Of a DNA stretch of 64,000 nt, positions 8,935-41,017 are shown piece by piece (position 1 is the stretch's first letter; every line of letters begins with the position of its first letter). The stretch lies in the IMG/VR virus record IMGVR_UViG_3300049433_000110, positions 1 through 64,000 of that record, one strand, 5' to 3'. The notes beneath the pieces were generated by a model that saw nothing but the letters and a program-made list of their open reading frames with translations, did no database searches and was not told the DNA's origin. Made by a program: the position numbers and the translations under genes. The stretch is from a virus.

Positions 8935-9378
8935 ATGTCCGCAGTGCTCAAAAGCAAACAGAACGACCCGGCCGCCCAACTCAAACGCGACATTCTGGCT
9001 AAAATCGGCGATGTGTCCGAGTTCGAGATTGCGCAGAACGAAATCCTGCTCGCCATCTATCAGCGGCCCGAGACGACTTCTGGCGGCATCATCCAGGTTG
9101 CGCAGACGCTGAAGGAGGACATCTACCAGGGAAAGGTGGGATTGGTGGTCAAAATCGGTGAGCACTGCCAGTTTGATCGCGCGGACCCGTATACCAACAT
9201 CGTGACGGGGATTCCGATCTCACTGCACGACTGGGTGGTGGTCCGTCCTTCCGACACCTGGGCGCTCGATGTCAACATGAAGTCCGACACGCTGTCGAAA
9301 AAGGATTTCGTGCCCTGCCGGCTGGTCAAAGACAAAGATATTCGAGCGAAAATCCCTCATCCGGGGAGCGTGTGGTGA
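8935..9378 (+). CDS. GroES-like co-chaperonin fold protein
   Basis: 147 residues. The central part follows the GroES pattern: a first strand (ILLAIYQRPE), a mobile-loop-like TTSGGII with flanking residues, then QGKVGLVVKIG and later a strand (HDWVVVRPSDTW). Phages such as T4 (gp31) make their own co-chaperonin to fold the coat protein, and the place just before scaffold and coat would suit this. It could instead be a structural protein with a GroES-like barrel. It lies downstream of the portal, and the next gene starts within its stop. Confidence 0.6.
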   Translation: MSAVLKSKQNDPAAQLKRDILAKIGDVSEFEIAQNEILLAIYQRPETTSGGIIQVAQTLKEDIYQGKVGLVVKIGEHCQFDRADPYTNIVTGIPISLHDWVVVRPSDTWALDVNMKSDTLSKKDFVPCRLVKDKDIRAKIPHPGSVW

Positions 9379-18356: not shown

Positions 18357-21300
18357 GTGGCAAGCTTCCCGGGGCAGAAGGGCACTGGTCCGCCGCTACC
18401 GAACCCGGTGACGGGATTGATAGCGGTCGTGGTGAGCGCCGCGCAGGTGAATCTGTCGTGGGCGATCGTCTCGAATGCCACGAGCTACAACGTGCTGCGC
18501 GGCGGTGTGTTGATCAGCTCCCCAGTAGTCCCCGCCTTGTCGGACACGACGGTGTCGGCCAACACGACCTATCTGTACACGGTGCAGGGGGTCAATTCCA
18601 ATGGGGTGGGCGCGCCCAGTGCACCGGTCAGTGCGACGACGCCGCCCGCGCAGGTGACGGGGCTCACGGCGACGGTGTTGAGTTCCAGTTCGATCAGGTT
18701 GGATTGGAATGCCACGAGCGGGGCGAACACGTACACGGTCGACCGCGGCGGTTCGCCAGTCGGCACGGCGGGGGCCAACAGTTTTACGGACACGGGATTG
18801 GCGCCGAGCACGTCGTACACGTACGCGGTGGCGGCCAATGGGGCGGGAGGTCAGGGCGCTTTTTCTAGCCCTGCGAGTGCGACGACGCAGGCGGCCTCCG
18901 GTGGCACGATCATCTTTAATCCCCACGGGTCCGGCTTTGGGGGCACGGTGGGCAACATCGGCGGGGCCTCGCAGTTCACCGCCTCCGGAGCCAATGCCGA
19001 CTGGCTCACGCAGATGACCAGCCTGGACAATGACAACAGCGTTGTCATGGCGGATGGGACGCATCCGATCAAACACATCAAGGTCGTGGTGAGTTGGCAG
19101 TTGTTGTTTCCCGTCACGCAAGGGGACTGGGCGAACAGTCAGGGGATCGGGCTGCTGACGACGCTGTTCAATAACGTCGCAGCGCTCAATCACGGGCCTT
19201 ATACGGTCTCGGTCGAATGCAATTCCGTGGGAAACACGTTTGGCACGGTCTCCTCCGGGGATGCGAAAAACATGATCCCGCTGTGGTGGTACAACAATGC
19301 CACCTATGGACCGGTTGGAGGCAACAACTATGGCGGTGTCTCATGGCGCACCTCGCCCGCCTACGGACCCAATCTTCGCATCGACAATGCCAATGTGCTG
19401 TCGGAGATGGTCTCGGTGATGAGCGCGATCTACACCGCACTGGAAGCGGCCGGCCATCACATCTATATCTTCAATCCGTTTCAGGAGTTGTCACTCGGGG
19501 CCGCTGGCTGGATCAATATGGGCCTGACGGACACCAGTTTTAAAACCGCCAATGCGGTGTTTGCAGCCAATCTGCGCGCGGCGATGCCCAAGAGCATGTT
19601 GGCCGTTGATCTCACCTATCCTTCGCAAAGCGGCATGCCGGGCGTTCCGGCCATGTTGGAAACGTTTCTGCCCAACAAGTGGTCTTGCAGTAACTACGAT
19701 GCCTGCAACCCGAATGTCCCTTCCGATATCACATCCACGCAGGCATTGCCGCGCATCGCGCAAGGAGATTTGGCATTCTGCGGCCAGAACACGCTCAACG
19801 GATCGGTGGTCACTAAGAATTACAAGGCGCTGGGATATGACTTCCAGTGTGACTCGTGCACAGACGAGTTAGGATTGAGGAATGCACCGCACAGCGTACT
19901 GCCGGCGCAGATCGGATCGGGAAGAATCCCGGACGTACTGACCAATGATACGTATTGCGGATCATCACATCACTTCTTCCAGTGGGCCAACAACGGGCCG
20001 CCCTGTAACGCGAACAGCGGCGGTTCCGGCCCTGCAAACTATGCGGTGAACGGCGTGACGGTGACGGCGAGCAATCTCGCCGCGTATCTTGCGCAGATCG
20101 GGGTCGGCGCACTCAATCCGACCAGGCCGTCGACATTCGGCACAGGTGGCACGTTAGCAGCGCCGGCGAACTTACGGTGGATCAATCAGGGCGGCCCGAA
20201 TAACTTCGATAGCGGGCATCCCAGTTCCAGCTCGAGCACGAATGCCATTCAGTGGGATCCGGTAACTACAGGCACGGGCTACAACGTCTACCGATCCAAG
20301 AACGGGGGTGCGTTTACCCTTCTGGCCACTAACGTTCAGCCCCAGACGTTCGTGGGTTCGATCGCGCTGGGCCCGGGTGGGATCGGTGGACGGCTGACGG
20401 TCACCACTGACAACACCGGTGGCAAGATCTTCCCGGGCACCGTCCTCGATGGCAACGCAGGCGTCACCGCTGAGACCACGATCAGCGACCGGTACACCGG
20501 GGGCAACCAGAACGGCACGACGACGGGGACGGGAGGTACGGGTACTTATCCTCTCAACATCCCTCAGACGCTCAGCTCGCGCACCTTCACGGTGTGTATG
20601 TTCATCGACACGACAGCGACGAATTCGAACAATGACCTGTACACCGGGCCAAACGACATCTATGACTACAACGTCTCTACTCTGAACGCAGCAGGCGAGG
20701 GGCCACAGACTACCAACATCACGATGTGGGGCTATCGCAACGGCTACACCTTGTGGCACGGCCTGCAGTCGCTTCCTCACGGAGAAGAGGTTTCTTTCGG
20801 GATGCCCAACTCGTTCTACAACTCGACTAACGGTAACCCGCAGGGCGGCCCGTTTTGTTGGGAGTACACGGTCAACCAGGGATTACAGCCCGGCACTGAT
20901 ACTCCCCAGGTCCCGGAATGGACGCTGGAAACCGGTTGGGCTGGGTACATGATGTTCGACTTCAATCCGGGCGCGGCCTATACGGGCTGGCCGCTGGATG
21001 GAATGGGAAGTGTCTCCCGAGTCCCGCCCGGGGACGTATTCGGCAAGCTTCCGCAGTTTGATGCTCTCGCCTATGCGCAAGGCGCGGTAGCTGCCAATAC
21101 CTGGGTGACAGTCAAGATTCCCATGGGCGTGTTCGGCATGACGCGCAACAGTTTCACCGGCAGCATTTCGAACGGCTCCGGAGGCGCCGGCTCCACGTGC
21201 TCCGTGACTGCGGTAGGCGGTGGATTGTTTGGAGGCGCGGGAACGTTTGATAATTCCGGTTACATCACGGGCACGGGAATCCCTGCCGGTAGCTGGGTCA

Positions 21301-21521
21301 ATTCGAATCTGACATTGGGAACGGGTCCCGGCGGCTCAGGCCCCGGCAGCACGTGGCAGATCCTCAACGGAACAGGCGCGGGCACTCCAGTCAGTGTCAA
21401 CGTGACTTCCGATGGAACATGGGCGTATTCCCGAACGAGCTTGTACAAATTCCCCCTCTACACCCGAAGCGGGCCAACTCAGCAGTCATTTCTCAATAAC
21501 CTCCGGTTTTCGAGGACCTGA
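18357..21521 (+). CDS. FN3/CBM multidomain receptor-type protein
   Basis: 1,054 residues from GTG 18357 with GAAGAGGAAAG upstream. Two FN3 domains at about 14-95 and 96-178 (NVLRGG and YTVDRGG strands). Then a long domain of about 180-560 with HHIYIFNPFQELSLG, which may be a TIM-barrel-like sugar-active domain (uncertain). A third FN3 (about 610-800) is split by an inserted beta domain (666-748). A jelly-roll CBM-like domain ends the chain (NTWVTVKIPMGVFGM ... YKFPLYTRSG), again split by an inserted beta domain (about 933-1021). It probably binds or degrades a cell-surface glycan. Confidence 0.7.
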   Translation: MASFPGQKGTGPPLPNPVTGLIAVVVSAAQVNLSWAIVSNATSYNVLRGGVLISSPVVPALSDTTVSANTTYLYTVQGVNSNGVGAPSAPVSATTPPAQVTGLTATVLSSSSIRLDWNATSGANTYTVDRGGSPVGTAGANSFTDTGLAPSTSYTYAVAANGAGGQGAFSSPASATTQAASGGTIIFNPHGSGFGGTVGNIGGASQFTASGANADWLTQMTSLDNDNSVVMADGTHPIKHIKVVVSWQLLFPVTQGDWANSQGIGLLTTLFNNVAALNHGPYTVSVECNSVGNTFGTVSSGDAKNMIPLWWYNNATYGPVGGNNYGGVSWRTSPAYGPNLRIDNANVLSEMVSVMSAIYTALEAAGHHIYIFNPFQELSLGAAGWINMGLTDTSFKTANAVFAANLRAAMPKSMLAVDLTYPSQSGMPGVPAMLETFLPNKWSCSNYDACNPNVPSDITSTQALPRIAQGDLAFCGQNTLNGSVVTKNYKALGYDFQCDSCTDELGLRNAPHSVLPAQIGSGRIPDVLTNDTYCGSSHHFFQWANNGPPCNANSGGSGPANYAVNGVTVTASNLAAYLAQIGVGALNPTRPSTFGTGGTLAAPANLRWINQGGPNNFDSGHPSSSSSTNAIQWDPVTTGTGYNVYRSKNGGAFTLLATNVQPQTFVGSIALGPGGIGGRLTVTTDNTGGKIFPGTVLDGNAGVTAETTISDRYTGGNQNGTTTGTGGTGTYPLNIPQTLSSRTFTVCMFIDTTATNSNNDLYTGPNDIYDYNVSTLNAAGEGPQTTNITMWGYRNGYTLWHGLQSLPHGEEVSFGMPNSFYNSTNGNPQGGPFCWEYTVNQGLQPGTDTPQVPEWTLETGWAGYMMFDFNPGAAYTGWPLDGMGSVSRVPPGDVFGKLPQFDALAYAQGAVAANTWVTVKIPMGVFGMTRNSFTGSISNGSGGAGSTCSVTAVGGGLFGGAGTFDNSGYITGTGIPAGSWVNSNLTLGTGPGGSGPGSTWQILNGTGAGTPVSVNVTSDGTWAYSRTSLYKFPLYTRSGPTQQSFLNNLRFSRT

Positions 21522-23146
21522 TGGCCGCGGACATCCGACAAAGCGCATTCAGCCAGTCGCAACCCGGCAGTGCGTTTGTAAACCCGATTCCGGTTTGCGA
21601 ACCGTCCGCCACGGTGTCCGGCAACGCCATCATTGCTTTCGGCGCCAGTTCTTATGACGTCTCGGCCCAGACATTTACTTGCACCGACACTCTGGGGCAG
21701 ACCTACACCCAGATCGACTACCTGTCGCAATCGGGTGCGTACAACTTTGCGACGTTCATCTGCCAGAACGCGCTGTCGCTGCCCGCCCCGGTCGCGATCA
21801 CTTTTACGGGCTCTGTTGCAATCAGTGCAGCTTCGACCACGCTCTCATCGCCATGGGCTGGGACGACTGCCACTTACATCATTCGGTTCAGCACCGGGGA
21901 ATGCAGGGCATCCACACTCACCAACGGCTCTACTACTTGCACATGGAGCCAAGGCTTGGGGCAAGCTGCCACTGCCTCGGCAACGGCAGGTAGCGGCCCG
22001 TACTTCAACCAAAGCGGTGGCAACGGGGATGCTACGGTTGCAGGTATTCTTGAAATAGAGAACGTGCCCCCATCGGGCGTTCTGGTCGCGCACAACGCAG
22101 CGATTAGAAACAGCATCACGAATGGCGCCAACACGCTCAACCCGGGAAGTCTGGCTTGCGGATCGGGCAATGGCCTGTTGGTCATGCTCGTTGCCAATGC
22201 CACCAATAACACCGGCTCACCCTCTTACACGCCTCTCGTGGGTACTTCGCCGGTCTCCTTCACCCAGTTCGGCAGTTCGTTTGTCAACTACGGCGGAGAC
22301 ATCGCAACCAATGCCTTTATCTGGCAGTCTGCGCATCTCACAGCTCCTGGCACGATCACGCCGACGGCCGGTACGCAAGAGACCGGGGCTGAGACCTATT
22401 ACGTTTTCGGGATGTTCTTTGCGGATGCGGCGCCCATCGTTCGCAAGTGGCACGGCACCGTTGCGCGCGGAAGCGGTTCCGTCACGCCCACCACGAACGG
22501 CAGTTATGCGGCCGGCGACACACTGATCTATTACACGTATCAGGATTCTGCAGGCACCAACGGCAGTGCGGTGGTGTCCGGCATCAACTCGCCCTGGACG
22601 GCGATTGATTTTGATACCAACGCGCCGCAACTGCGGGCCTTTCGCCTCAATGTGGTGACGGGAAGCGAGTCGATTCCGACGGCGACGTGGGGTACCGGGC
22701 AGCCCTGCGGTGCCAAGTTGGTGTGTTTATCCGGGGTGGACCCCAGTGCCACGGGCGGTACGCCGGTGGATCGCGTGACCAACACGACGGGGAATATCGT
22801 ATCCCCGACCGTGGGTCGTACGCCGAGCGTGGATGGGTGTTATTGCTCGTGGTACGGCACGCACGTCAAAACCGCGACCTCCAACACCAACTCGTGGACC
22901 CCACCCACGAGCTTCACGCTGCTGGATTCTGACAATCCGCCCGGCGGCGCAGCCGCCTTTGTGCTGGGTGAGTGGATCCAGAGCACGGCCACCGCGATCG
23001 GGGCCAGCATCGTGTTCACGGCCGCGACCCCCGATACCAGCGCGGCGATGCAGTCGGCGTTCTTCATCCTGGCGCCGGCCAGGACGGCACCACCACCCTC
23101 ACCGCCGACCTCAAAGGGCGGCATGAACGTACAGGTGTGCATGTGA
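21521..23146 (+). CDS. Large beta-rich virion protein
   Basis: 541 residues, ATG overlapping the previous TGA. Ser/Thr/Gly-rich beta-sandwich pattern in two halves (SGNAIIAFGASSYD; GNGLLVMLVANATNN), each followed by similar strands. A Pro-rich linker and GGMN end close it. Probably part of the receptor-binding set. Confidence 0.6.
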   Translation: MAADIRQSAFSQSQPGSAFVNPIPVCEPSATVSGNAIIAFGASSYDVSAQTFTCTDTLGQTYTQIDYLSQSGAYNFATFICQNALSLPAPVAITFTGSVAISAASTTLSSPWAGTTATYIIRFSTGECRASTLTNGSTTCTWSQGLGQAATASATAGSGPYFNQSGGNGDATVAGILEIENVPPSGVLVAHNAAIRNSITNGANTLNPGSLACGSGNGLLVMLVANATNNTGSPSYTPLVGTSPVSFTQFGSSFVNYGGDIATNAFIWQSAHLTAPGTITPTAGTQETGAETYYVFGMFFADAAPIVRKWHGTVARGSGSVTPTTNGSYAAGDTLIYYTYQDSAGTNGSAVVSGINSPWTAIDFDTNAPQLRAFRLNVVTGSESIPTATWGTGQPCGAKLVCLSGVDPSATGGTPVDRVTNTTGNIVSPTVGRTPSVDGCYCSWYGTHVKTATSNTNSWTPPTSFTLLDSDNPPGGAAAFVLGEWIQSTATAIGASIVFTAATPDTSAAMQSAFFILAPARTAPPPSPPTSKGGMNVQVCM

Positions 23147-23424
23147 ATGCCTTCGACTACATGCTTCCTCCCAAGGAGCAGTTTCACCTCACCGAGAATT
23201 ACGTCTCGAGCCCGCCTGCGCTCACCATCTTTGATGAGGCCGGAGCGGTGTGGTGTCTCGACACTGACATGCAACCGGGGCCGTTTGGCGAGTATGCTTT
23301 TTCCGTGCTGCGCAATGGTGTGCGCACTGGCGCCGTGGCGTCTCGGATTGAAAGACGTAACGGCAAGATCCGCGTTTTCACCGTCGATGGCTGGCGCCAA
23401 TGGACGGGACGATCGTTTGCTTAG
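23143..23424 (+). CDS. Small virion-region protein
   Basis: 93 residues from GTG 23143 (GTGA overlap). Compact alpha/beta pattern (VWCLDTDMQPGPFGEYAFSV). Followed by 54 bases with two overlapping inverted repeats (CTCAA/TTGAG and GAGCG/CGCTC, 23446-23466) that may be a pause site. Confidence 0.6.
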   Translation: MNAFDYMLPPKEQFHLTENYVSSPPALTIFDEAGAVWCLDTDMQPGPFGEYAFSVLRNGVRTGAVASRIERRNGKIRVFTVDGWRQWTGRSFA

Positions 23425-23478: not shown

Positions 23479-23967
23479 ATGGCACGAGTTTACACACTGG
23501 CGGGAGCGAACCTGACTCTTGCCAACCAAGCCGTCACCCTCGCGTTCGTGAATGTCGGCGCGACGACCTCCCTTGAGTTTTTGCGCGCGTGGGCGTCGCA
23601 GTCGAGCTCGAACAACACGGCTCAGCAGCGCGTGCAACTCAATACTCAGGTGTCGGCGTTTCCCACCCTGACCTCACAGACCCCATCGAAGAACTGGACT
23701 CTGGATCCCGCATCGCAAATCGTGGGCGGTGCGGCGGGTGCGGCAGGCACTTCGGGTGTCAACGCATCGGCGGAGGGCGCCGGCGCGAAGTCGATTATCT
23801 ACCCGGATGCCTTCTCGATCGTGAATGGATATCTTTGGGTGCCCACACCGCCTGAGACTCTGACGCTGAATGCGAGCGCCACCTCGGGCCTGGGACTCCA
23901 TTTTCCGGCAGCACCAGGCTCGCTCGGCAACTGGAACGGCGGCCTCGTGTTTAGAGAAACCGCGTAA
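23479..23967 (+). CDS. Structural protein candidate
   Basis: 162 residues. Beta-rich with helical break (RVYTLAGANLTLANQAVTLA). Resembles small virion proteins that occur near tail genes of podoviruses, by pattern only. Confidence 0.6.
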   Translation: MARVYTLAGANLTLANQAVTLAFVNVGATTSLEFLRAWASQSSSNNTAQQRVQLNTQVSAFPTLTSQTPSKNWTLDPASQIVGGAAGAAGTSGVNASAEGAGAKSIIYPDAFSIVNGYLWVPTPPETLTLNASATSGLGLHFPAAPGSLGNWNGGLVFRETA

Positions 23968-23998: not shown

Positions 23999-25207
23999 GT
24001 GGGGCACTGGTATAACCCGCCGCCTCCGCAACCGGCCGCCGTTCACCTTCCGCCGAATGCGACGGCGTCGGCCAATATCCCGCCCAATCCTGTTGGGTCG
24101 GGATCGCTGTTGATTCGATCGACGTGGCCCCAAGAGTCATGGCCAAGTCAGGTGTTGATTGGCGGCGGCGTCGGAGCGCTCACGGCTGCTGTCTTTACGC
24201 CTCCGACGGCTATTGCAGCGACCAATCCGGCCCTGTTGGCAGCGATCCGGCAGGCATGGCCACCCGAGCTATGGGCGACACAGCGCGCCGCTCAAATCGC
24301 GAGCCTCCTCGCTGCAGTGATCAATCCGCCAGTGGCGTATCCGTCGCCACCCGCCTCTCTCGGATCCTTGCGAGGCAGTTGGCCGCAGGAATCGTGGTAC
24401 GCGCAATCGGAATCGGGCATTGCCTCGGGGCTCGCGCAGACTCAACTGCCCGCGGTCTATTCGCCGAACTGGTACGGCGACACGCTTCTGCTACTGGTGT
24501 CGACGTGGCCTCGGGAGGATTGGCGGGCACAGACCGGCGCACGGTATGCGGCATGGATACCACCCCCCGCAACGGCCATCCCGACTGCGATCCGACATCC
24601 GGAAATCCTGCTTTGGACGCCGGACACGTGGGGAGCTCAATCCGGCACGAGGGCAGCCCCCATTCTCGCCCAGGCACCCGCGTCGCAGCCGTATGTAAAC
24701 CGATGGCTCTCGGCGGCTTTGCGTTCGACATGGTTGCCCGAGGATTGGCCCGCGCAGACTTTCCCCGATATCGCAGGCGGCCAGTCGCCGTTGGCACCGC
24801 CGCTGCCGCTGCCGCCGTCACAATTCACAATCTCTCTGTGGCCCGTCGAATTCTGGGGACCCCAAGGCGGCACGCGAGACGCCGCGATTCTCGCCAGCCC
24901 CCAGATCCTCATATTCATGCCGTTCGTGGTGGGCGAGTTGCGGGACGTGGCGATCGCGCAGTTGCAGTCCCTATTCGCGCCGACCATCACCCTGCAGTAT
25001 GTTTTCTCAGGCGCCCCCGTACTGACCGTTGTCGCCCAATCAATCCCTGTGGGTACGCTGGTATTCCCAGGGGAGGCCGTTACCCTGCAAATATCCCTTG
25101 GGCATCGACACGGCCCGCTACCGTGCCCCATCGTTGAGAGTATCCTCATCAGCAACATTCCGGTGGTTCTGAGCATCTTGCCCCCCAACAAGACGGTGAT
25201 CCATTGA
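23999..25207 (+). CDS. Seven-repeat WPxExW protein with PASTA-like end
   Basis: 402 residues from GTG 23999 with AGGAG upstream. Seven copies of a W-x4-W motif (consensus WPxExWxxQ) begin at Trp43, 87, 128, 170, 206, 245 and 281, spaced 36-44 residues apart, each followed by an Ala/Pro-rich helix or linker. The end (about 338-368, VVAQSIPVGTLVFPGEAVTL) follows the PASTA pattern of a strand, a QSxPxGT turn and a final strand. PASTA units bind peptidoglycan fragments in other proteins. I know no family with the WPxExW array. The following TTG start overlaps its stop. Confidence 0.65.
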   Translation: MGHWYNPPPPQPAAVHLPPNATASANIPPNPVGSGSLLIRSTWPQESWPSQVLIGGGVGALTAAVFTPPTAIAATNPALLAAIRQAWPPELWATQRAAQIASLLAAVINPPVAYPSPPASLGSLRGSWPQESWYAQSESGIASGLAQTQLPAVYSPNWYGDTLLLLVSTWPREDWRAQTGARYAAWIPPPATAIPTAIRHPEILLWTPDTWGAQSGTRAAPILAQAPASQPYVNRWLSAALRSTWLPEDWPAQTFPDIAGGQSPLAPPLPLPPSQFTISLWPVEFWGPQGGTRDAAILASPQILIFMPFVVGELRDVAIAQLQSLFAPTITLQYVFSGAPVLTVVAQSIPVGTLVFPGEAVTLQISLGHRHGPLPCPIVESILISNIPVVLSILPPNKTVIH

Positions 25208-25593
25208 ACTGCGCGTGCTCCTCCTCGTGTGAGGCATTTGCCTTCGATTTGTGCATCCAGCAGTGGGCGACCTACAGCCAAGCGTTCACGTGGCTGTCGC
25301 CGCAAGTCGTCGCCAATGGGGGGCAGCAGGTGTTGCCGGTTGATCTGACGGGGTACACGGCAACATTGCAGATTCTCCCGTATCCGCTCGCGACGGCCAT
25401 CCTTTACGATGCCAGTTCAAACATCACGCTCGGGGGACCCACGGGGATCATTACTATCAACATTCCTGCGGCAGTGACGGGCGCCTTCACGTGGTGGGCT
25501 GGCGTGTATGACCTGCTGTTGACAGACCTCGCTGGGACTGTGACGCGGTTCACGCAGGGGAATGTGACAGTGTCTCCGGGGGTGTCTACGTGA
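25204..25593 (+). CDS. BppU-like Ig-fold tail protein
   Basis: 129 residues from TTG 25204 (TTGA overlap), beginning NCACSSSCEAF. The body follows a common phage pattern: a strand with PVDLTGYTATLQI, a loop, INIPAAVTGAFTW, then YDLLLTDLAGTVTRFTQGNV. This is the small beta-sandwich used in baseplate or fibre-attachment proteins. It precedes the first adaptor. Confidence 0.65.
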   Translation: MNCACSSSCEAFAFDLCIQQWATYSQAFTWLSPQVVANGGQQVLPVDLTGYTATLQILPYPLATAILYDASSNITLGGPTGIITINIPAAVTGAFTWWAGVYDLLLTDLAGTVTRFTQGNVTVSPGVST

Positions 25594-26282
25594 GCATGAA
25601 GACATCAGGTACCTACGCCTTCGCACCCTCGATGGGAGAGGCAGTTCTGTACGCTTTCGGGTTGTGCGGCGTGCGCCGTACCGCAATCACCCAACAGCAC
25701 ATGGAAGACGCCCGCATGGCGACCAACATGTTGATGGGGCGCTGGAGCGCGGATGGAGTCAACTTATGGCAGGTTGACTTGGTCAGCTTTCCTCTTATTA
25801 AAGGGCAACCGACATACCCCGTCCCCTGCAACACGATCGTGATGCTCGATATGTACTACACGATCAACAATGGCGCACAGTCTATAGACCGAATCGTCAC
25901 TCCAGTGAGTCGTACGGAGTACGCGAGCTATCCCAACAAGAATCAGCAGGGAAGCCCGACCGTAGCATGGTTCAACAGACTGCTATCTCCCACTGTTACC
26001 TTGTGGTTGGTACCTAACGGACAGCAAGCCTCCTTCAGTTACTATCGACTGCGACAAACACAGGATTCTGAATTTAAGAATGGAACTAACGTCGAGATTC
26101 CCCCGTACTTTTTGGAATCTTATGTATTCGGTCTGGCAACTCGACTGGCTGCTATTTGGGCGCCTGACAGAGCGGTGGGACTGAAAGCAATGGCGGATGA
26201 GGCTTGGGGGATCGCAAGCAGACAAAACATCGAGCAATCGAATTTTTACGTCTCTCCTAGTGTGGGAGGATATTTCCGGTGA
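25590..26282 (+). CDS. Head-tail adaptor, P22 gp4-like
   Basis: 230 residues. Helical start with EAVLYAFGLCGVRRTAITQQ, then LMGRWSADGVNLWQVDLVSF, a beta core and a helical end (FGLATRLAAIWAPDRAVGLK). This is the pattern of podovirus adaptor proteins that sit under the portal and close the head (P22 gp4, SU10 adaptor). Its stop overlaps the GTG of a GIY-YIG gene. Confidence 0.75.
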   Translation: MSMKTSGTYAFAPSMGEAVLYAFGLCGVRRTAITQQHMEDARMATNMLMGRWSADGVNLWQVDLVSFPLIKGQPTYPVPCNTIVMLDMYYTINNGAQSIDRIVTPVSRTEYASYPNKNQQGSPTVAWFNRLLSPTVTLWLVPNGQQASFSYYRLRQTQDSEFKNGTNVEIPPYFLESYVFGLATRLAAIWAPDRAVGLKAMADEAWGIASRQNIEQSNFYVSPSVGGYFR

Positions 26283-27226
26283 CAGAGGAGAACGTATTCT
26301 ACGTATACGAACACTGGCGTCCTGACAAGAACGTCTGTTTCTACGTTGGCAAGGGGAAAGGTAAGCGCGCCTGGAGTTTGGTGCGTGTACGAAACAGGTG
26401 GCACACTGGCGTGGTGTCTAAACTCACGTCAATTGGACTCACGGTTGATGTGCGCATCATAGCATCCAACCTATCAGCGCAGGATGCTCTGGCCATGGAA
26501 ATAGAGCGCATTGCCATGTACGGCAGGGGAAATCTGACCAATTTAACTAGAGGGGGCGATGGTCTTGTTGATCCCTCTCCTGAGGTTGTGCGCCGCATAT
26601 CAGAATCTCAAAAGGCTAGATATGCCAAAATGACACCAGAAGAGCGCGCTAAGTTTTTTGAATGTTTCAAAAACAGACCTCCAATTTCTGAGGAGACGAG
26701 AAAAAAATTATCCCTGTCGAGTACGGGGAGGTGTCATGACGCTAACGCAAGAGAGCGCATCAGTACAGCTCGAAAGGCAGCAGGTATGCCTCGCCATGTT
26801 ATAGAGGCATCCATTAGGGCTAAGACTGGAAAGAAGCTCGCCCCCTTCAAGGATTCAACTATCGAAAAGATGAGATTGGCATCTATTGAACGAGAACGCA
26901 GAAAAAAGGAGAAGAGACTGGCCGATTGTTTGCCACATCTAACTGTAAAGTCTAGATCTGTAGTATGCCTAGATGATGGGAAAATATTCCCTAGCATAGC
27001 AGTAGCTTCCGAATATTACGGAATACACCGAACTACGATTAATCAGGTATGCAAGGGCGTCCGTAGCCACAAAACGGCCGGTGGAAAAAGGTTCGCCTAT
27101 GAGGAAGAAAGGGAAATCAGGCTGAATGCCCCGTTTCAACTTCGCTCCCCTATTACAGAAGAAGCTAGACGAAACATTTCCGAAGCTGCGAAGTTGGGCT
27201 GGTTGAAGAGGAAAAAGGCAGCGTAA
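26279..27226 (+). CDS. GIY-YIG homing endonuclease
   Basis: 315 residues from GTG 26279. The GIY-YIG domain begins at residue 6: FYVYEH then FYVGKGKGKR, with a later Glu in AMEIERIAMYG. A long basic tail carries NUMOD-type DNA-binding units (PISEETRKKLSLSSTG; VVCLDDGKIFPSIAVASEYY, then an HTH GIHRTTINQVCKG). Clearly richer in A+T than its neighbours. It fills the junction between two tail genes exactly: GTGA at one end, TAATG at the other. Confidence 0.93.
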   Translation: MTEENVFYVYEHWRPDKNVCFYVGKGKGKRAWSLVRVRNRWHTGVVSKLTSIGLTVDVRIIASNLSAQDALAMEIERIAMYGRGNLTNLTRGGDGLVDPSPEVVRRISESQKARYAKMTPEERAKFFECFKNRPPISEETRKKLSLSSTGRCHDANARERISTARKAAGMPRHVIEASIRAKTGKKLAPFKDSTIEKMRLASIERERRKKEKRLADCLPHLTVKSRSVVCLDDGKIFPSIAVASEYYGIHRTTINQVCKGVRSHKTAGGKRFAYEEEREIRLNAPFQLRSPITEEARRNISEAAKLGWLKRKKAA

Positions 27227-27963
27227 TGGCCTACGCATCCAAAGCAGGCAGGTGCAGGACATCGGCCAAATCCCCCGTTGCACAATCTGTTTGTGATCGT
27301 TGCGGCATCTGGTTTTCGATTACGGACACCTCTTTTCAGAGTGACTGGCGAGGCACGAGCTTGCAGTGTCTCTGGCTGCGCGTATGTCGGCGATGTTTGG
27401 ACGTTCCACAGGCCCAACTTCGCGCAATCCAGTTGCCTGCCGATCCAACACCTGTCTGGCAGCCTCGCGTTGAGAACTTCATCACCGCCGAAGTGGACTC
27501 GAATCAGCCCATCGGCATCCCAACCGGCCTCGATCAGAACGCGGTGATGCCCTACAACGGCACCGTGCAAAAAGCCTTCGCCGTGCCGCTCTTGCTGCTC
27601 TCGGTTACCTCCAACGGCACAACGACGATCTTCGTAACCTGCTCTCAACCGCATGGGCTGAACAACGACGATCAGATTGCAGTCCAGGGACTGTCGGATC
27701 GCAATGCCTGCGGATTCTTCAGCATCACGATGTTCACAGCCACGGTGTTCACCTACACGACCGGGAATCCAGTCACCGCGGCATCGCTGCTGACACCCAC
27801 GACGCGCATGATCACGTGCTTGGTCGGTTTGCCACGGGGATCGACACAGATCCCGCAGATATCGACAGCGTCGCCCCCACAGCCCTCCGTCACTCTCGTA
27901 ACCGAGACCGGACTATTCCTAGAGACGGAGACGGGGCAGACACTCCGGACTGAAATACCATGA
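27226..27963 (+). CDS. Zinc-site tail-region protein
   Basis: 245 residues, ATG 27226 overlapping the HEG stop. The N-terminus has CDRCGIWF (23-30) and CRRC (54-57), a treble-clef-like zinc site, then PQAQLRAIQLPADPTP, a pattern I recall from podovirus tail regions. The C-terminal half is a beta domain. Probably a minor virion protein. Confidence 0.7.
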   Translation: MAYASKAGRCRTSAKSPVAQSVCDRCGIWFSITDTSFQSDWRGTSLQCLWLRVCRRCLDVPQAQLRAIQLPADPTPVWQPRVENFITAEVDSNQPIGIPTGLDQNAVMPYNGTVQKAFAVPLLLLSVTSNGTTTIFVTCSQPHGLNNDDQIAVQGLSDRNACGFFSITMFTATVFTYTTGNPVTAASLLTPTTRMITCLVGLPRGSTQIPQISTASPPQPSVTLVTETGLFLETETGQTLRTEIP

Positions 27964-30083
27964 AGAAACTGTTCGTGTGGATCGTCTTGTTGCCTCTGTC
28001 CGCGTGGGCACAGCAGAAGCTTTCGACGTTACCGCCGGCTCAGACTCAGACGGGCACGGAGATCATCCCGGAATATCAAGCGGGAAGCTGCATTACCACA
28101 GGAGGAACCTGCGGCGTCACGCCAGCACAGCTTGCGAACTATGCGGTCGCGCAGATTCCTGTTTCCGCTGCAAACGCGTTTACTGCGTTGTTGCTGGCGA
28201 ACAATGTCGATATCACGGGCACCATAGAAAGCTCATCCGGACTTCAGGCTGCGTTGAACGCCTGTACCCAGTCAGTTCACTGTGTCGCTACATTTCCGCC
28301 CAACGCCATCATCAAGATCAACAACGGCATCACTATTACGAGCGGCGTGCAGAGCATCGATTCCAGCGGCTTGAATCTGAATGCAACAGGCATGACCACG
28401 GGATGCATCTCCGTGCTCGAGGCGAGTTTCACGGCCTCGATTACGGGTACCGTGATGACGGTGACAGCGATCAGCCAGGGCACGGTACGAGCTGGAGATG
28501 TGCTCTCAGGCTCCGGAATCACCGCCGGTACCACCATCACGGCCGTTCCTGGGACGGGCGCCGGCCTGAGCGGCACCTACAACCTGAGTCAATCGCAGTC
28601 CGTGGGGAGTGAAACGATGACGATCAGCGGCTGCTTTGCGATGGTCGTAAGCGCGAATGCCAGCTCCCCTTATTGGATTGGCGCTCCGGCGCAACCGATC
28701 GGACAGTTCTCTTTGTCCGGTCCAACCGCAAACACCAGCAACGTTGACGGGATCTTCATCGGTCGTACCGCTGGCAATGGCAACGTCACCGGGCAGTCGC
28801 TCTCGAATTTCTTCACCAATGGCTTCCGCGATGCAATGGTCATTGGCAGCGATGTGTACGTGGATTCGGTCTGGAATGGGAACATCCAGGGCGCATGGCG
28901 CAATGGACTGTTCTACAACGCGGCCCTGGTCTCGGGCGAGAACTTCTCCTGGCATGGCGGCGGCATCTCCGGGTGTGTGAATCCGGTCACGGTGACATTC
29001 ACAGGCTCCCCGAGCGGCACCAGCGCGTCGCTAGCCTCTACCTGGATCCTTCCAACCAACTTCTATCCAGTGAAATTCAGTGACGGAGAGTTGCGCCCGG
29101 TCACATTGACCAACGGGGCCACGACAGCGACATGGGCGGCCTCGCTCACCGGGACACCGACCGCGATAGCCACCACATCCTATGGCGCTGCGGGCGTCTA
29201 CCTACCGAACTCGCAAGGCAACGGCGGGACGAAGGAACTGTTTCTGGCTGGGGTCTCGCTCGATTACAACGATCAGCAGATTGTGGACTTGGGCGGCATC
29301 GTGGATTGCACCCCTTGCCACATCGAGGACAATCACTACCAGGGCCAGCTCATTACCATCGTGCAGGGGACCAACTCCCAGCCGACCGGTGTGCAGTTGG
29401 ACGGTGGAACGGTCGCTCTGTTTGACCTGTCTCCGCGCTCCTCTTTGATCAGCGTATCCGCTCCGCAGAACGGTGCCTTCTTCCGGGCTCGGGCTCGTTT
29501 CGCTAACTCGGCGGCTTCGACCTACTTCACCGTGAGCAGCGGGACTCCTGCGATCAATGTTCATGGCAGCAACTTCAACGACTTCGGCGCAGGTGGCGCG
29601 TCCGCCTCTCTCGGGACGCAGCTCAACCTGCTACACAACCCCGGGTTCGAGACCGGTACGCTGGCTGGCTGGCAAGCCACAGGTAACTCAACTGGCCCTG
29701 GCTGGCAGGTCACGGTGGATACCGTCACGGTCCATTCCGGCACCTACTCCATGCAGGTGATTTCAACGACCACGGGCACGAACACTTTCTCTCAATCGAT
29801 CCCGTGCCAGCCCGGCGATCAGTTGAAGATGCGCGAGTGGATAAACATCTCAGCTTATACGTCGGGGACACTCAACGCCTCGGTCTATTTCTACGATTCT
29901 GCAGGAGTGGATAAAGTTAGTTCGACCGTCCTGCGACCTAGCACGGGGACCACCCCAGGTTGGCTCGCTGTCCAAGGTTCCATCTGGGTACCTTCTGGGA
30001 CACAGTCCTGTTGGCTCGGCATCGACTCGACCGACTTCATCGGCACTTTCAACCTGGATGACGCTGAATTCAATGACATCTAA
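27960..30083 (+). CDS. Tailspike-like beta-helix protein with CBM-like end
   Basis: 707 residues. It starts with a clear signal peptide (MKKLFVWIVLLPLSAWAQQ). The middle has the short repeated strands of a right-handed beta helix (GLQAALNACTQSVHCVATFP; DGIFIGRTAGNGNVTGQ), as in tailspikes that cut surface polysaccharide. About residues 155-225 form an inserted beta domain. The end from about residue 555 (NLLHNPGFETGTLAGWQ) is a jelly-roll of the CBM4/9 type that would bind sugar. Catalytic residues cannot be picked out. A signal peptide is not expected on a virion tailspike. Confidence 0.75.
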   Translation: MKKLFVWIVLLPLSAWAQQKLSTLPPAQTQTGTEIIPEYQAGSCITTGGTCGVTPAQLANYAVAQIPVSAANAFTALLLANNVDITGTIESSSGLQAALNACTQSVHCVATFPPNAIIKINNGITITSGVQSIDSSGLNLNATGMTTGCISVLEASFTASITGTVMTVTAISQGTVRAGDVLSGSGITAGTTITAVPGTGAGLSGTYNLSQSQSVGSETMTISGCFAMVVSANASSPYWIGAPAQPIGQFSLSGPTANTSNVDGIFIGRTAGNGNVTGQSLSNFFTNGFRDAMVIGSDVYVDSVWNGNIQGAWRNGLFYNAALVSGENFSWHGGGISGCVNPVTVTFTGSPSGTSASLASTWILPTNFYPVKFSDGELRPVTLTNGATTATWAASLTGTPTAIATTSYGAAGVYLPNSQGNGGTKELFLAGVSLDYNDQQIVDLGGIVDCTPCHIEDNHYQGQLITIVQGTNSQPTGVQLDGGTVALFDLSPRSSLISVSAPQNGAFFRARARFANSAASTYFTVSSGTPAINVHGSNFNDFGAGGASASLGTQLNLLHNPGFETGTLAGWQATGNSTGPGWQVTVDTVTVHSGTYSMQVISTTTGTNTFSQSIPCQPGDQLKMREWINISAYTSGTLNASVYFYDSAGVDKVSSTVLRPSTGTTPGWLAVQGSIWVPSGTQSCWLGIDSTDFIGTFNLDDAEFNDI

Positions 30084-35863: not shown

Positions 35864-36066
35864 GCGATCCAGGTCCATTCGACGACGCAGATATCCTCAT
35901 GCGCTTGCGTGGCATCGTGTCTGAGTTGCTCACCAAGCATACAGATGCCAAGGAAACCGGGAATTCAGGCTGCGGCATGGGGTCCGCCGATGTTGAATTT
36001 GACCTCAATGGAGTAAAATTCACGGTGTCAATCAGTCTGTCTGAGGATGACGACGTTGAGCACTAG
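35860..36066 (+). CDS. Small acidic protein
   Basis: 68 residues from GTG 35860 (GTGA overlap). N-terminal helix (DDADILMRLRGIVSELL) and a beta pair (ADVEFDLNGVKFTVSISL). The next HEG starts within it, 20 bases before its stop. Confidence 0.5.
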   Translation: MSDPGPFDDADILMRLRGIVSELLTKHTDAKETGNSGCGMGSADVEFDLNGVKFTVSISLSEDDDVEH

Positions 36067-37204
36067 AAAAGCCAAGAAAAACACGCCGGAGCATAACGCT
36101 AAAATAGCGGCGGCGCACCGTGGCAAAAAGCTGTCCCCCGAGCATAGAGAAAAATGTCGACTGGCTTCCCTCGGTCGAAAACAGACTCCACAGGAAATCG
36201 AGGCTCGTCGTTTAGCAAATACTGGCAAAAAGCGTTCGCCGGAATTTTGCGAACTCATGCGGCAACTCCAGGCCAATCGGACACCGGAACAGAAAGCCGC
36301 GCAATCCGAACATATTCGTCAACGGAACTTAAATAAGACACCGGAACAGAAAGAAAAGGAACGGCTCGCATTGGTAGCTCGCAATAAAGCGAGAGCCGGA
36401 GAAAAGCGGCAGTTTCCGCCGACACGCGAGGCAGGAAGTACTGATCCCGTATTTTACGTATATGAGCATTGGCGCTCCGATACCGGGCAGCCATTTTATG
36501 TCGGCAAGGGATTTAAAAAACGCGCCTATCAGATGACGATGCGCAATCGGCATCACATGTTTGCGCAGGACTATCTGAAGCGAATTGGAGCCTTGATCGA
36601 AGTCAAGATAGTCGCCGTATATTTGACTGAGCGCGAAGCATTAGATTTGGAAATTGAGCTAATAGAGAAGTGGCTTACGTCTGGTTGTAAGTTAGTCAAT
36701 ATTACTAAAGGCGGTGATGGGCCTACGGGCAGAAAGCACACGGAAGAGTGGAAGCGAGCGATGAGTGAGCGAATGAAGGGACGAAAGATGTCACCCGAAG
36801 CGCGCGCAAAGATTGCGGCTTCTGCAATTGGCAATAAGAGAGGATTAGGTAAGAAAAAGCCGCAGCACGTGGTTGATGCCATGCGGGCGCTATTCACTGG
36901 AAAACCTAAATCCGAAGAGACCAAGAGGAAGATATCCGAATCGAAGAAGGGTAAGCCGTGGAATGGTGTGCACTCTCCTGAGCTTCTCGCGAGGAGAAGC
37001 GCAGAGATGACGGGCATCCCGTTCTCCGAAGAGAGGAAACTAACTATGCGCGGCATTCCGAAGAGTGAAACGCATAAACAGAAGCTGAGAGAGATCAATT
37101 TGGGGAAGACGCATGACGAGGAAACTCGCAAACTTCTTTCCGAAATTGCAAAAGCCGATTGGGCTCGTCGCAAGGCTAAAAAAGCCTTGGAAACAGGGGA
37201 GTAG
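36047..37204 (+). CDS. GIY-YIG homing endonuclease with NUMOD3 arrays at both ends
   Basis: 385 residues. N-terminal 120 residues are a row of NUMOD3-like units (TPEHNAKIAAAHRGKKLSP; SPEHREKCRLASLGRK). The GIY-YIG domain follows at about 134-225 (VFYVYEHWRSD, FYVGKGFKKRAYQM, ALDLEIELIEKW). Four or more further NUMOD3 units fill the C-terminus (KSEETKRKISESKKGKPWNG). Having DNA-binding arrays on both sides is uncommon; most GIY-YIG enzymes have them only at the end. It is A+T-rich compared with its flanks and lies in frame with the next gene, from which only one TAG separates it. Confidence 0.92.
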   Translation: MTTLSTRKAKKNTPEHNAKIAAAHRGKKLSPEHREKCRLASLGRKQTPQEIEARRLANTGKKRSPEFCELMRQLQANRTPEQKAAQSEHIRQRNLNKTPEQKEKERLALVARNKARAGEKRQFPPTREAGSTDPVFYVYEHWRSDTGQPFYVGKGFKKRAYQMTMRNRHHMFAQDYLKRIGALIEVKIVAVYLTEREALDLEIELIEKWLTSGCKLVNITKGGDGPTGRKHTEEWKRAMSERMKGRKMSPEARAKIAASAIGNKRGLGKKKPQHVVDAMRALFTGKPKSEETKRKISESKKGKPWNGVHSPELLARRSAEMTGIPFSEERKLTMRGIPKSETHKQKLREINLGKTHDEETRKLLSEIAKADWARRKAKKALETGE

Positions 37205-37249: not shown

Positions 37250-40200
37250 GTGCCCGCCTCGGTACTTGCTGCCTATCAGTCTGTAAACGCCAACGCTGAA
37301 CAAGTCGCTCAAACACCATTCCAACAATACGGCGGCCAGTTCGTTGCGCCCGTCAATGCCGAACAGAGCGCGGGAATAGCCGGCACCAACGCGGCCGCCA
37401 ACGAAGCTCAACCTTACTACAGCGCTGCGACTGCCGGACTCGGCGCGGCCCAGTCAGCCGTCAACCCGATTAACGCCGCTGCGGAAGCAGGAACGACCGC
37501 CAGTTCATCTCCCCTGACGGGTCAACAGATAGACCAGTACCTGTCGCCTTATCTACAGACCGTGTTGGGCAGCACGGGAGCGTTGCTCAACCAAAACAAC
37601 CAACAGCAGCAAGCGGGGCAATTGGGCAACGCGATCACCTCAGGAGCCTTTGGAGGGGACCGCGCTGGCATTGCCGCTGCGAATCTGGAACAGCAACAGA
37701 ATCTGGCGAACGCGAATATTTACTCCGGAATAGCCAACCAGGGGTATCAATCGGCACTCAGCACCGCGCAGGGACAACAACAGATCGGACTCGCAGGAGC
37801 GCAGCAACTCGCCGGCATCGGGCAGATGGCATACGGCGAGGGTGCGAATACATCATCACAACTCGCCGGTCTCGGTGCTGGCGCGCAAACCGCAGGACTT
37901 CAGGGGGCGCAAGCGCAGATCGGCGCAGGCACGGTACAGCAACAAACACAACAGGCGCAGGACACTGCGCAGTATCAGCAGTTCCTGCAGCAGCAATCCT
38001 ATCCATTCCAGACCGCGCAGTTCCTGGCGAATATCGCCGAGGGTACCGGTGCGCTATCGGGTTCAACAACAACAACCACTCAACCCGGCGGCTTCTTCAG
38101 TGACGAGCGTCTGAAAGAAGACATGGAGCCCATCGGCAAAACCTTCGACGGCCAGCCGATCTACCGCTACAAGATGAAGGGCGATTCGCGTGATCGGATC
38201 GGACTGTCAGCCCAACAGGTCGAAAAGAAACATCCCGAGGCTGTGGGGCTGGCGGGCGGCTTCAAGTATGTCGATTACGGTCGCGCGACGGAGGAAGCGG
38301 CCAATCGTGCGCACTTCTACGAGGGCGGCGTCGTTCCGTTTCGTCGGCAGCGCTATGCCGATGGGGGATCGCCTGGCGGCGGCTTGGACGGGGTGCTCGA
38401 GGCGCAGCGAAACATGTACTCACCGCAAGGCGGTGGTGGAGCTCAGCGGAACATCCCCTCAACGGGCGCAAGTCACCAACTAGCCGTCGCGCAGGGAACT
38501 CCACAGCCGGGGCCCTCCGGTTCAGACAATGTCACCAAGGGCATCGGGTACGGCAAGGACATGTACAAGGCGTACAAGCATTTCACGACGCCGACGACGG
38601 GGACAACGGCCCCAACAACACCAACCGGGCTGAGTCCAGCCGGCGTCCAGCCGAGCGGTGCGACCACCTACGGAGCGGGCACGCCCGCGACTGCTTCTGC
38701 GGCTCCTCAATCGGGACTGGGATCCACAACCTATTTCGGGCCCGCGGCCGATACGGGCACAACCATTTATTTCGGACCTGCCGCAGCGGATGCCGGGACC
38801 ACGACGACGTTTGATGCCGGGTTGGGCGCTGCCGATACGGGCGCCACGGCGGCCAGTGCTGCCGCTCCAGCCGCTGCCAGCGGCGCCGCGGAGGGTGCTG
38901 CAGCAGAAGGGGCGGCTGGCGCTGCAGCCGGCGCCGGAGCGGGTGCCGCTGCTGGAGCTGCCGGAGGCGCTGCTGCGGCAGGGGCTGCTGATGCTGCGGC
39001 AACGGAAGCCGCGGCGCTGGCGGCGGAATACGCGGCCACCTATGCGGCCATGGCGGCCGTGGCGGCGAAACGGGGCGGGCGGATCAAAGACCGCGTCGGG
39101 CTCGCCGCGGGCGGGGATGTAGACCCTTACAGCAATCCACAAGGCGGACTCGTCATCCCGGACCAAGAGATCAGCAACGAGAAATTGCAAAGCCCCGGTC
39201 CACTGGTGAAGCATCCCAGCGGATTTTCATCCCTCCTAAAGGGCGGCCAACCCGATCAGGCGATGAACAATACGGGCGAGATCTTCAGCAACCAGGCGCT
39301 CGCTCGCGGGGGCCTGGCGGGACGGCGCGGATATGACGATGGCGGCACGCCGGATGACACTCCCGATGCGACTAGCGCGCCGAGCTCGCCCGCACCCGCC
39401 GCTGATGACACGGCGACGGGTGTCGCACCCGCGAAGGGCTCGCACTGGTGGCAGAAGTCCGAAAACATCCTCCCGATTCTGTCGGGGCTTGCGGCCATGG
39501 GCACTGCGAAGACGGTTCATCCCGGAGTAGCGCTTGCGGCGGGCCTGGGCGCCGGTGCCGACTCGTACCTGAACACGCGGCGATCGCAGGCGGGGACGGA
39601 GGAGATTCAGGCGAAGGCGCAGGGACAGCAGATACAGAATCAACTCGGCGCGCTGGGAGTCAAGGCAGCTCAGAAATACTTCAACCCGCCGAAAACTCCT
39701 CAGCAGAACGCCGCTCCATCCGATGCCGCACAGGCGACCGCGGATGGTGTTGATCAGATGTACAAGAACAAGTACCAGACGCTGCCATGGACGCCACAGG
39801 AAACTTCAGATATGAGCGCGGCGAGGGGGGCTGCAATCGCGCTGAAGAATGACCAACCCGTGCAAGACGTTCAGGCGAAGCGAGACCAGCGGTATCAAGA
39901 TGAGATTTACTCTAAGCAGAAAAATGCGCAGGTAGAGGCCAGCCAACTCTACAAACAAGCGACCGACCCGGGCGCCACCCAGCCGCAGCGCGACGCAGCT
40001 CTTGTGCGCTATAACGCGATTCGCCAATGGACAGGGGACACGCCGACTGAGATCGGTGGCCAACGATTGAATTCGCGGATGGCCGCGCCCGAGATCGGGG
40101 CGGCCGCGCAGGTTCAGACGCTCGGGCAGAAACAGGAAGCGTATGCGCGCGGCATGCAGCCTATAGTTCTCGGAAACGGTTTGCCGGGATTCGCATTCCA

Positions 40201-41017
40201 GAAAGCCGGATTCAACAAGATCGAAGATTTCGTAGCAGCGCAACCGGGAGCAGTGACCACGCAGCCTGCGGCTGGCCCTGCACCCGTCGGAGCAGCGGCT
40301 CCATCAGCCAGGCCCGCGACAGTAGCGCCGCCACGGGCGGCTCCCGCAACCGCTCCTGCGTCCTCGACCGGTGACAAGTACTTGGATAGCGCGCTATCCG
40401 ATTCGACATGGCGCCAGAAGCCATTACCGCCCGTGAACGATCAGTTGAGTCGCGATGCTGCGATGAAGCAGCAGGATCTCAATATTTCCAATCGCAATGC
40501 ACTGCTGAAGGAATCGGAAGCGGCGACCAACGCGGGCGCGACTGCGATGCAGTATCTGAAGGCTGCCAAGTCGATCATGGATTCCAAGGGCGCGACCGTT
40601 GGCGCATATGGCAGCCTGCTGACGAGCGCCAGCCGTTGGATGGGGGGCGGCCCTCAATCGACGAACTATCAGGAGTTGGCGAAGTATCTGGGCAACGCCG
40701 CAGCTCAACAGGCACAAGCCAATTTTCCGAGCGCCACCCAGTCCGAAGTGCACATGCAGTTCAACGAGTTGAGCCCGAATGTCAGCATGGATGACGCGAC
40801 TATCAAGAAGCTGCTCAATACCAACATTCGATCGACGGATTACGGATTGAAAAGCGCGAGCCACGTGAAAGACTACTTGGCGAAAGGAAACGAGCCGACG
40901 AACTTCGCGAAGTGGAATCAAACGTATTACGACCGCGATAAGTTGGTGAATGCGCCCATGGCGACGAATGCGCAGGGCGAGCGGTTGTATTTCGTCAATG
41001 GGAAGTGGGCGCCATGA
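37250..41017 (+). CDS. Giant ejection-type protein with internal S74 chaperone domain
   Basis: 1,255 residues from GTG 37250, but the likely start is ATC at 37211 (see findings): 13 more codons read IGGKSATSTQQVQ and AGGGGAG is nine bases before the ATC, while the GTG has no ribosome site. Gln/Ala-rich helical N-terminus (to about 275), then a Peptidase_S74 intramolecular chaperone domain at 281-350 (FSDERLKED, Ser284-Lys289 in the expected Ser-x4-Lys spacing), then GG motifs, an Ala-rich low-complexity stretch (about 530-605), a membrane-like segment (ILPILSGLAAMGTAK) and a long helical end. Gene place and length fit a DNA-ejection or internal virion protein. Confidence 0.75.
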   Translation: MPASVLAAYQSVNANAEQVAQTPFQQYGGQFVAPVNAEQSAGIAGTNAAANEAQPYYSAATAGLGAAQSAVNPINAAAEAGTTASSSPLTGQQIDQYLSPYLQTVLGSTGALLNQNNQQQQAGQLGNAITSGAFGGDRAGIAAANLEQQQNLANANIYSGIANQGYQSALSTAQGQQQIGLAGAQQLAGIGQMAYGEGANTSSQLAGLGAGAQTAGLQGAQAQIGAGTVQQQTQQAQDTAQYQQFLQQQSYPFQTAQFLANIAEGTGALSGSTTTTTQPGGFFSDERLKEDMEPIGKTFDGQPIYRYKMKGDSRDRIGLSAQQVEKKHPEAVGLAGGFKYVDYGRATEEAANRAHFYEGGVVPFRRQRYADGGSPGGGLDGVLEAQRNMYSPQGGGGAQRNIPSTGASHQLAVAQGTPQPGPSGSDNVTKGIGYGKDMYKAYKHFTTPTTGTTAPTTPTGLSPAGVQPSGATTYGAGTPATASAAPQSGLGSTTYFGPAADTGTTIYFGPAAADAGTTTTFDAGLGAADTGATAASAAAPAAASGAAEGAAAEGAAGAAAGAGAGAAAGAAGGAAAAGAADAAATEAAALAAEYAATYAAMAAVAAKRGGRIKDRVGLAAGGDVDPYSNPQGGLVIPDQEISNEKLQSPGPLVKHPSGFSSLLKGGQPDQAMNNTGEIFSNQALARGGLAGRRGYDDGGTPDDTPDATSAPSSPAPAADDTATGVAPAKGSHWWQKSENILPILSGLAAMGTAKTVHPGVALAAGLGAGADSYLNTRRSQAGTEEIQAKAQGQQIQNQLGALGVKAAQKYFNPPKTPQQNAAPSDAAQATADGVDQMYKNKYQTLPWTPQETSDMSAARGAAIALKNDQPVQDVQAKRDQRYQDEIYSKQKNAQVEASQLYKQATDPGATQPQRDAALVRYNAIRQWTGDTPTEIGGQRLNSRMAAPEIGAAAQVQTLGQKQEAYARGMQPIVLGNGLPGFAFQKAGFNKIEDFVAAQPGAVTTQPAAGPAPVGAAAPSARPATVAPPRAAPATAPASSTGDKYLDSALSDSTWRQKPLPPVNDQLSRDAAMKQQDLNISNRNALLKESEAATNAGATAMQYLKAAKSIMDSKGATVGAYGSLLTSASRWMGGGPQSTNYQELAKYLGNAAAQQAQANFPSATQSEVHMQFNELSPNVSMDDATIKKLLNTNIRSTDYGLKSASHVKDYLAKGNEPTNFAKWNQTYYDRDKLVNAPMATNAQGERLYFVNGKWAP

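Follow-up and report, generated by a model that had tools for sequence, protein, structure and literature searches.

Tryptophan pairs that recur along a protein at nearly even distances raise the question of what such a protein does, and here it is posed by a viral gene. The window under study, by which we mean the whole stretch of DNA that was analysed, consists of the first 64,000 nucleotides of IMG/VR virus record IMGVR_UViG_3300049433_000110 (phage G000), a record of 69,591 bases that closes on itself through a 127-base end overlap. The gene product, referred to here as the W protein, has the following parts, and AGGAGAGG lies a few bases 5' of its start codon.

23999-25207, + strand: open reading frame of the W protein, 402 aa, GTG start; gene 5 of the cassette described below
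23999-24088, + strand: conserved Pro-rich N-terminus, MGHWYNPPPPQPAAVH..., residues 1-30 (pN 0.06 and 0.18)
24125-24151, + strand: core of repeat unit 1, WPQESWPSQ (W43)
24257-24283, + strand: core of repeat unit 2, WPPELWATQ (W87)
24380-24406, + strand: core of repeat unit 3, WPQESWYAQ (W128)
24506-24532, + strand: core of repeat unit 4, WPREDWRAQ (W170)
24614-24640, + strand: core of repeat unit 5, WTPDTWGAQ (W206)
24731-24757, + strand: core of repeat unit 6, WLPEDWPAQ (W245)
24839-24865, + strand: core of repeat unit 7, WPVEFWGPQ (W281)
24917-25096, + strand: single PASTA-like domain, residues 307-366 (Pfam, 15.2 bits)
25109-25204, + strand: conserved C-terminal tail, residues 371-402 (pN 0.10 and 0.15)

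The seven W-x4-W pairs begin at residues 43, 87, 128, 170, 206, 245 and 281, with spacings of 44, 41, 42, 36, 39 and 36 residues, exactly as an earlier sequence-only reading had placed them (36-44 residues apart); none of 20,000 shuffles of the protein reached seven pairs (the maximum was five), and a DNA pattern spanning two units matches four times in the window with none expected. Across the 30 units of four homologous proteins, the first tryptophan (W0), the second (W5) and a glutamine (Q8) are invariant, while E3 is found in 27 units and A14 in 28. The consensus WPxExWxxQ proposed earlier is thus borne out in its W0, W5 and Q8 positions and has to be relaxed at its proline, which is absent at +1 from the units at residues 206 (WTPDTW) and 245 (WLPEDW). 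The units match no family in Pfam, PHROG or NCBIfam, in agreement with the earlier remark that the repeat has no named family.

Is the repeat maintained in other phages? A search of IMG/VR with the protein recovered two full-length homologues, L001 (68% identity) and L002 (67%), together with a cut copy, L004, whose reading frames read as those of L002 over the part seen; a distant homologue, L011 (hereafter G003), was found by the two-unit DNA pattern, and its W protein is 33% identical to that of the window. The proteins of the window, L001 and L002 have seven units each and that of G003 has nine; the spacings are 42, 41, 42, 36, 39 and 36 in both L001 and L002, and 43, 40, 42, 42, 36, 39, 36 and 40 in G003, so that the run 42, 36, 39, 36 is common to all four. 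The Pro-rich N-terminus is also still recognisable in G003. The sequence-only reading had staked the repeat on homologues that keep its number and spacing and had proposed a profile search as a check: number and spacing are kept, and a profile built from the units of G003 alone finds the window protein (3.3e-35), as the reverse search finds G003 (1.5e-44). Among the three closest homologues dN/dS is 0.12-0.21, because of which we regard the reading frame as real, and by this sequence measure the W protein is under purifying selection.

The family is known from four phages. It has no homologue in 50,697 reference phage genomes at the search sensitivity used (where the only match was to a Gp77-like domain, E 0.2), nor in 84,980 GTDB species at the scan sensitivity used; the collection scans use short conserved peptides, which more diverged members may escape. 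A relaxed DNA pattern drew in about 20 further contigs, none of which passes the unit profile; those examined (L009, L010, L020, L023 and L029) carry pentapeptide repeats or repeats of short period, or are such repeats read in antisense. The literature searched yielded no report of a phage tail protein with Trp repeats or a PASTA domain.

Structure prediction gives a partial picture of how the units might be arranged. AlphaFold2 on the whole W protein with four sequences reached a pLDDT of only 27; a two-unit model built from 26 repeat-pair rows reached a pLDDT of 62 with a pTM of 0.23, and showed in each unit a helix, a W-P-x-E-x-W turn, a second helix and a Pro-rich linker, with no confidence in the packing between units. 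Foldseek with the two-unit model found nothing in the PDB. These predictions bear on the notion that the protein is a pure spacer, a set of small self-contained helical beads or a solenoid whose only job is to set how far the adhesin stands from the tail on its stalk, with W, E and Q forming the core of each unit. The varying number of units (7 or 9) at regular spacing, the helix-turn-helix predicted for each unit and the suitability of invariant residues for a core would all fit; on the other side stand the absent confidence in inter-unit packing and, for a stiff solenoid, the high proline content (13-15%) and variable linkers. We read the two-unit model, weakly, as favouring separate beads along a flexible chain over a solenoid. 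A spacer alone would also leave unexplained the constant company of two small proteins described below, and we consider it unlikely.

The C-terminal end is the part for which known domains can be named. The sequence-only reading saw a PASTA-like unit at residues 338-368; such a domain is present, at 307-366, and in the window protein it scores below the Pfam cut-off (PF03793, 15.2 bits against 23.2). Because the domain of L002 lies above that cut-off (26.9 bits) and a four-sequence family profile finds the PASTA of PknB (E 1.5e-5), the window domain is probably a diverged PASTA, the window protein itself not being filed as a member. PASTA domains of PknB-type kinases and penicillin-binding proteins offer the nearest likeness; the window gene differs in having neither kinase nor transpeptidase, in its single weak copy, in its place in a phage virion gene cluster, and in belonging to a family whose PASTA copy has been replaced in its distant member. 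That member, the W protein of G003, retains the W units and has at residues 407-488 a match to PF23148, Gp77, the podophage GP4 fibre-tail adaptor (30.3 bits, cut-off 27), the only Gp77 match in the G003 genome. PDB entry 8jou, which we take to be GP4, has a chain named only 'virion-associated phage protein' that matches the Gp77 end of G003 weakly (E 0.07). Relatives of Gp77 such as UOF82048.1 (105 aa, in MW202796, adjoining a tail-fibre gene) stand alone without W repeats, and no match to PF23148 was found anywhere in phage G000 at E up to 1.

This exchange of domains bears on whether the protein touches the cell wall, as the sequence-only reading had supposed. As a tail part, it might bind peptidoglycan or a surface glycan directly through exposed Trp pairs and the PASTA domain: Trp pairs at the surface are a frequent feature of glycan-binding modules, and the PASTA-like domain is above cut-off in L002 and profile-similar to that of PknB. 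One weak PASTA copy is, however, little for wall binding and is the sole hint of wall contact; family searches of the W protein found no catalytic or known glycan-binding domain, and the distant homologue keeps its W units while dispensing with PASTA in favour of an adaptor. We therefore hold direct wall binding to be quite unlikely, and the C-terminal end to be more likely a docking part, because Gp77 occupies that position in G003.

The gene context is more telling about what such an end would dock. The W gene is the last of five adjacent genes, of which the first four are as follows.

18357-21521, + strand: cassette gene 1, adhesin-like, with an MASFPGQK N-terminus, fn3 (Pfam, 2.5e-10) and a variable remainder
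21521-23146, + strand: cassette gene 2, variable protein with a conserved C-terminal tag, GG[MI]xVQVC
23117-23143, + strand: C-terminal tag of gene 2, GGMNVQVCM, a possible anchor peptide
23143-23424, + strand: cassette gene 3, 93 aa, no known family, overlapping gene 2 by four bases
23479-23967, + strand: cassette gene 4, 162 aa, no known family

In the two large proteins the ends are kept and the bodies vary. The N-terminus of gene 1 is retained in L001, L002 and G003 and its remainder mostly is not; the tag of gene 2 ends a protein in each of the four phages, the lengths being 541, 232, 233 and 443 aa. Otherwise variable adhesin-like proteins of the four phages thus share constant end peptides, an MASFPGQKxTG start (18357-18420) and a GG[MI]NVQVC end (23117-23143), a pattern resembling that of exchangeable host-contact proteins. 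The small proteins are more uniform: the 93-aa protein shares 72-89% identity with its counterparts in the other three phages, and the 162-aa protein 78-87%. The former has no match in the 50,697 reference phage genomes, and the latter, at the search sensitivity, has no family match and none in those genomes, in the 84,980 GTDB species or in plasmids. In the family searches, neither the W repeat nor either of the two small proteins fell into a named family.

The cassette is found on unlike phage backbones. G003, whose record also closes on itself with a 127-base overlap, has all five genes in unchanged order, with the fn3 gene spanning the record's end; between G003 and the window the portal proteins are 25% and the major capsid proteins 29% identical, the 93-aa proteins 75% and the 162-aa proteins 79%. 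Conversely, phage MW202675, with a capsid protein 80% and an adaptor 54% identical to those of the window, lacks the cassette despite its window-type capsid. When 2.9 million viral contigs were scanned separately for the W protein, the 162-aa and 93-aa proteins, the tag and the MASFPGQK start, every scan returned members of the same small set of contigs, once false matches of the relaxed DNA pattern are set aside, and the tag was found only in cassette-bearing contigs. L001 was missed by the tag and MASFPGQK scans, most likely because its peptides (GGMVVQVCQ and MASFPGQKST) differ at pattern positions. Because the five genes co-occur in a kept order on unlike backbones, because the scans agree and because MW202675 is without the set, the cassette, by these comparisons, behaves as one transferable unit.

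The same distribution bears on a further reading. In the window the cassette has the capsid gene on one side and the adaptor gene on the other, from which one might suppose that the W protein belongs to the head, as a decoration protein or a head fibre, with every W unit gripping one subunit of the capsid. That the cassette is common to G000 and G003 when their capsids are so unlike, that it is missing beside the closely related capsid of MW202675, and that Gp77 is a tail part, make this highly improbable.

Downstream, the W gene is followed by two genes of the backbone side.

25204-25593, + strand: 129-aa neighbour, overlapping the W gene by four bases (phrog_1084, 1.1e-20; phrog_3304, 6.5e-7)
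25590-26282, + strand: SU10-type head-tail adaptor (PF24175, 28.7 bits, cut-off 27)

The adaptor that the sequence-only reading placed nearby is indeed there, two genes after the W gene and above cut-off, but the supposed BppU-like neighbour is not: the 129-aa protein has no Pfam or BppU match and hits only phrog_1084, of unknown function, and, more weakly, phrog_3304, annotated for T5-type L-shaped-fibre assembly. It is 80% identical in phage G001 and is conserved with the backbone. The weak phrog_3304 match is a likeness to T5-like tail-fibre modules, in which, however, the W protein has no relative. Gene neighbourhoods of phrog_1084 in Acidovorax and Pseudomonas phages showed no linked Gp77 domain.

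Several other features of the window may be recorded. Directly behind the adaptor gene, an ORF at 26279-27226 resembles, by eye, a GIY-YIG homing endonuclease; it is missing at that place in L001, and MW202675 has there a 39% identical gene annotated as an intron-associated endonuclease. A second homing endonuclease lies at 36047-37204 (phrog_314, 1.8e-31). The 1255-aa protein encoded at 37250-41017 resembles DNA-ejection/virion proteins over residues 12-351; its Peptidase_S74 chaperone domain lies at 284-332, a position unusually distant from the C-terminus. The 707-aa protein at 27960-30083 carries a CBM_4_9 carbohydrate-binding domain and, because it has no counterpart at that place in L001, may be an additional variable adhesin or spike. 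Finally, the reading frame at 8935-9378 is a 36% homologue of a MW202675 gene annotated as co-chaperonin GroES, and probably represents a phage-borne GroES.

Taking these lines together, we hypothesize, with a probability of roughly 0.55, that the W protein is the virion-anchored backbone or adaptor of a five-gene adhesion module in a short-tailed phage. That it is a tail part at all, as the sequence-only reading had suggested, is probable from the adhesion-module context and the Gp77 fibre-tail adaptor of the distant homologue. We infer a virion location, with the C-terminal end docking the protein to the tail through the Gp77-type adaptor domain in G003 and through the PASTA-like domain and conserved tail in the others; this role is suggested by the PASTA/Gp77 swap and, for the window protein, by position only. 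The N-terminal two thirds consists of 7-9 equivalent units, each about 30 residues long, with Pro-rich linkers between them, and would carry or space the adhesins; for every unit the prediction, a weak one, is of two helices, the first of them short, joined by a W-P-x-E-x-W turn. The W, E, W and Q that recur so strictly from unit to unit most likely make the same contact each time, whether this is the core of the unit itself or a docking face for the two small partners, which would sit on the repeats; one backbone would then carry several adhesin heads via the 93-aa and 162-aa proteins. The two large variable proteins may attach by the ends that stay constant, MASFPGQK at the N-terminus of one and GG[MI]NVQVC at the C-terminus of the other.

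A stronger form of this hypothesis, possible but on balance doubtful, would make the W protein a multivalent scaffold in which each W-P-x-E-x-W-x-A-Q unit docks one small partner (the 162- or 93-aa protein). The docked partner would hold exchangeable adhesins by the constant peptides at their ends, so that one backbone would bear a branching array of receptor-binding heads; the module would pass as a whole between unlike phages. Cellulosome scaffoldins, which are multi-docking scaffold proteins, provide an analogy from general knowledge only: they share the repeated equivalent units, the Pro-rich chain, the anchoring end and the small conserved partners, but no sequence relation to the W protein was found, and docking by the W protein is putative.

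The job that the W protein probably does, attaching fibres or adhesins to the tail of a podophage, is a known one; its build is new. Receptor-binding parts set the host range of phages and are usually trimeric fibres or spikes; if our hypothesis is true, a repeat-bearing backbone with end-tagged variable adhesins, shared by phages of unlike capsids, would mount adhesins in a different way, one that is modular by nature. The repeat also supplies a defined, testable motif for protein families that are blank in current libraries.
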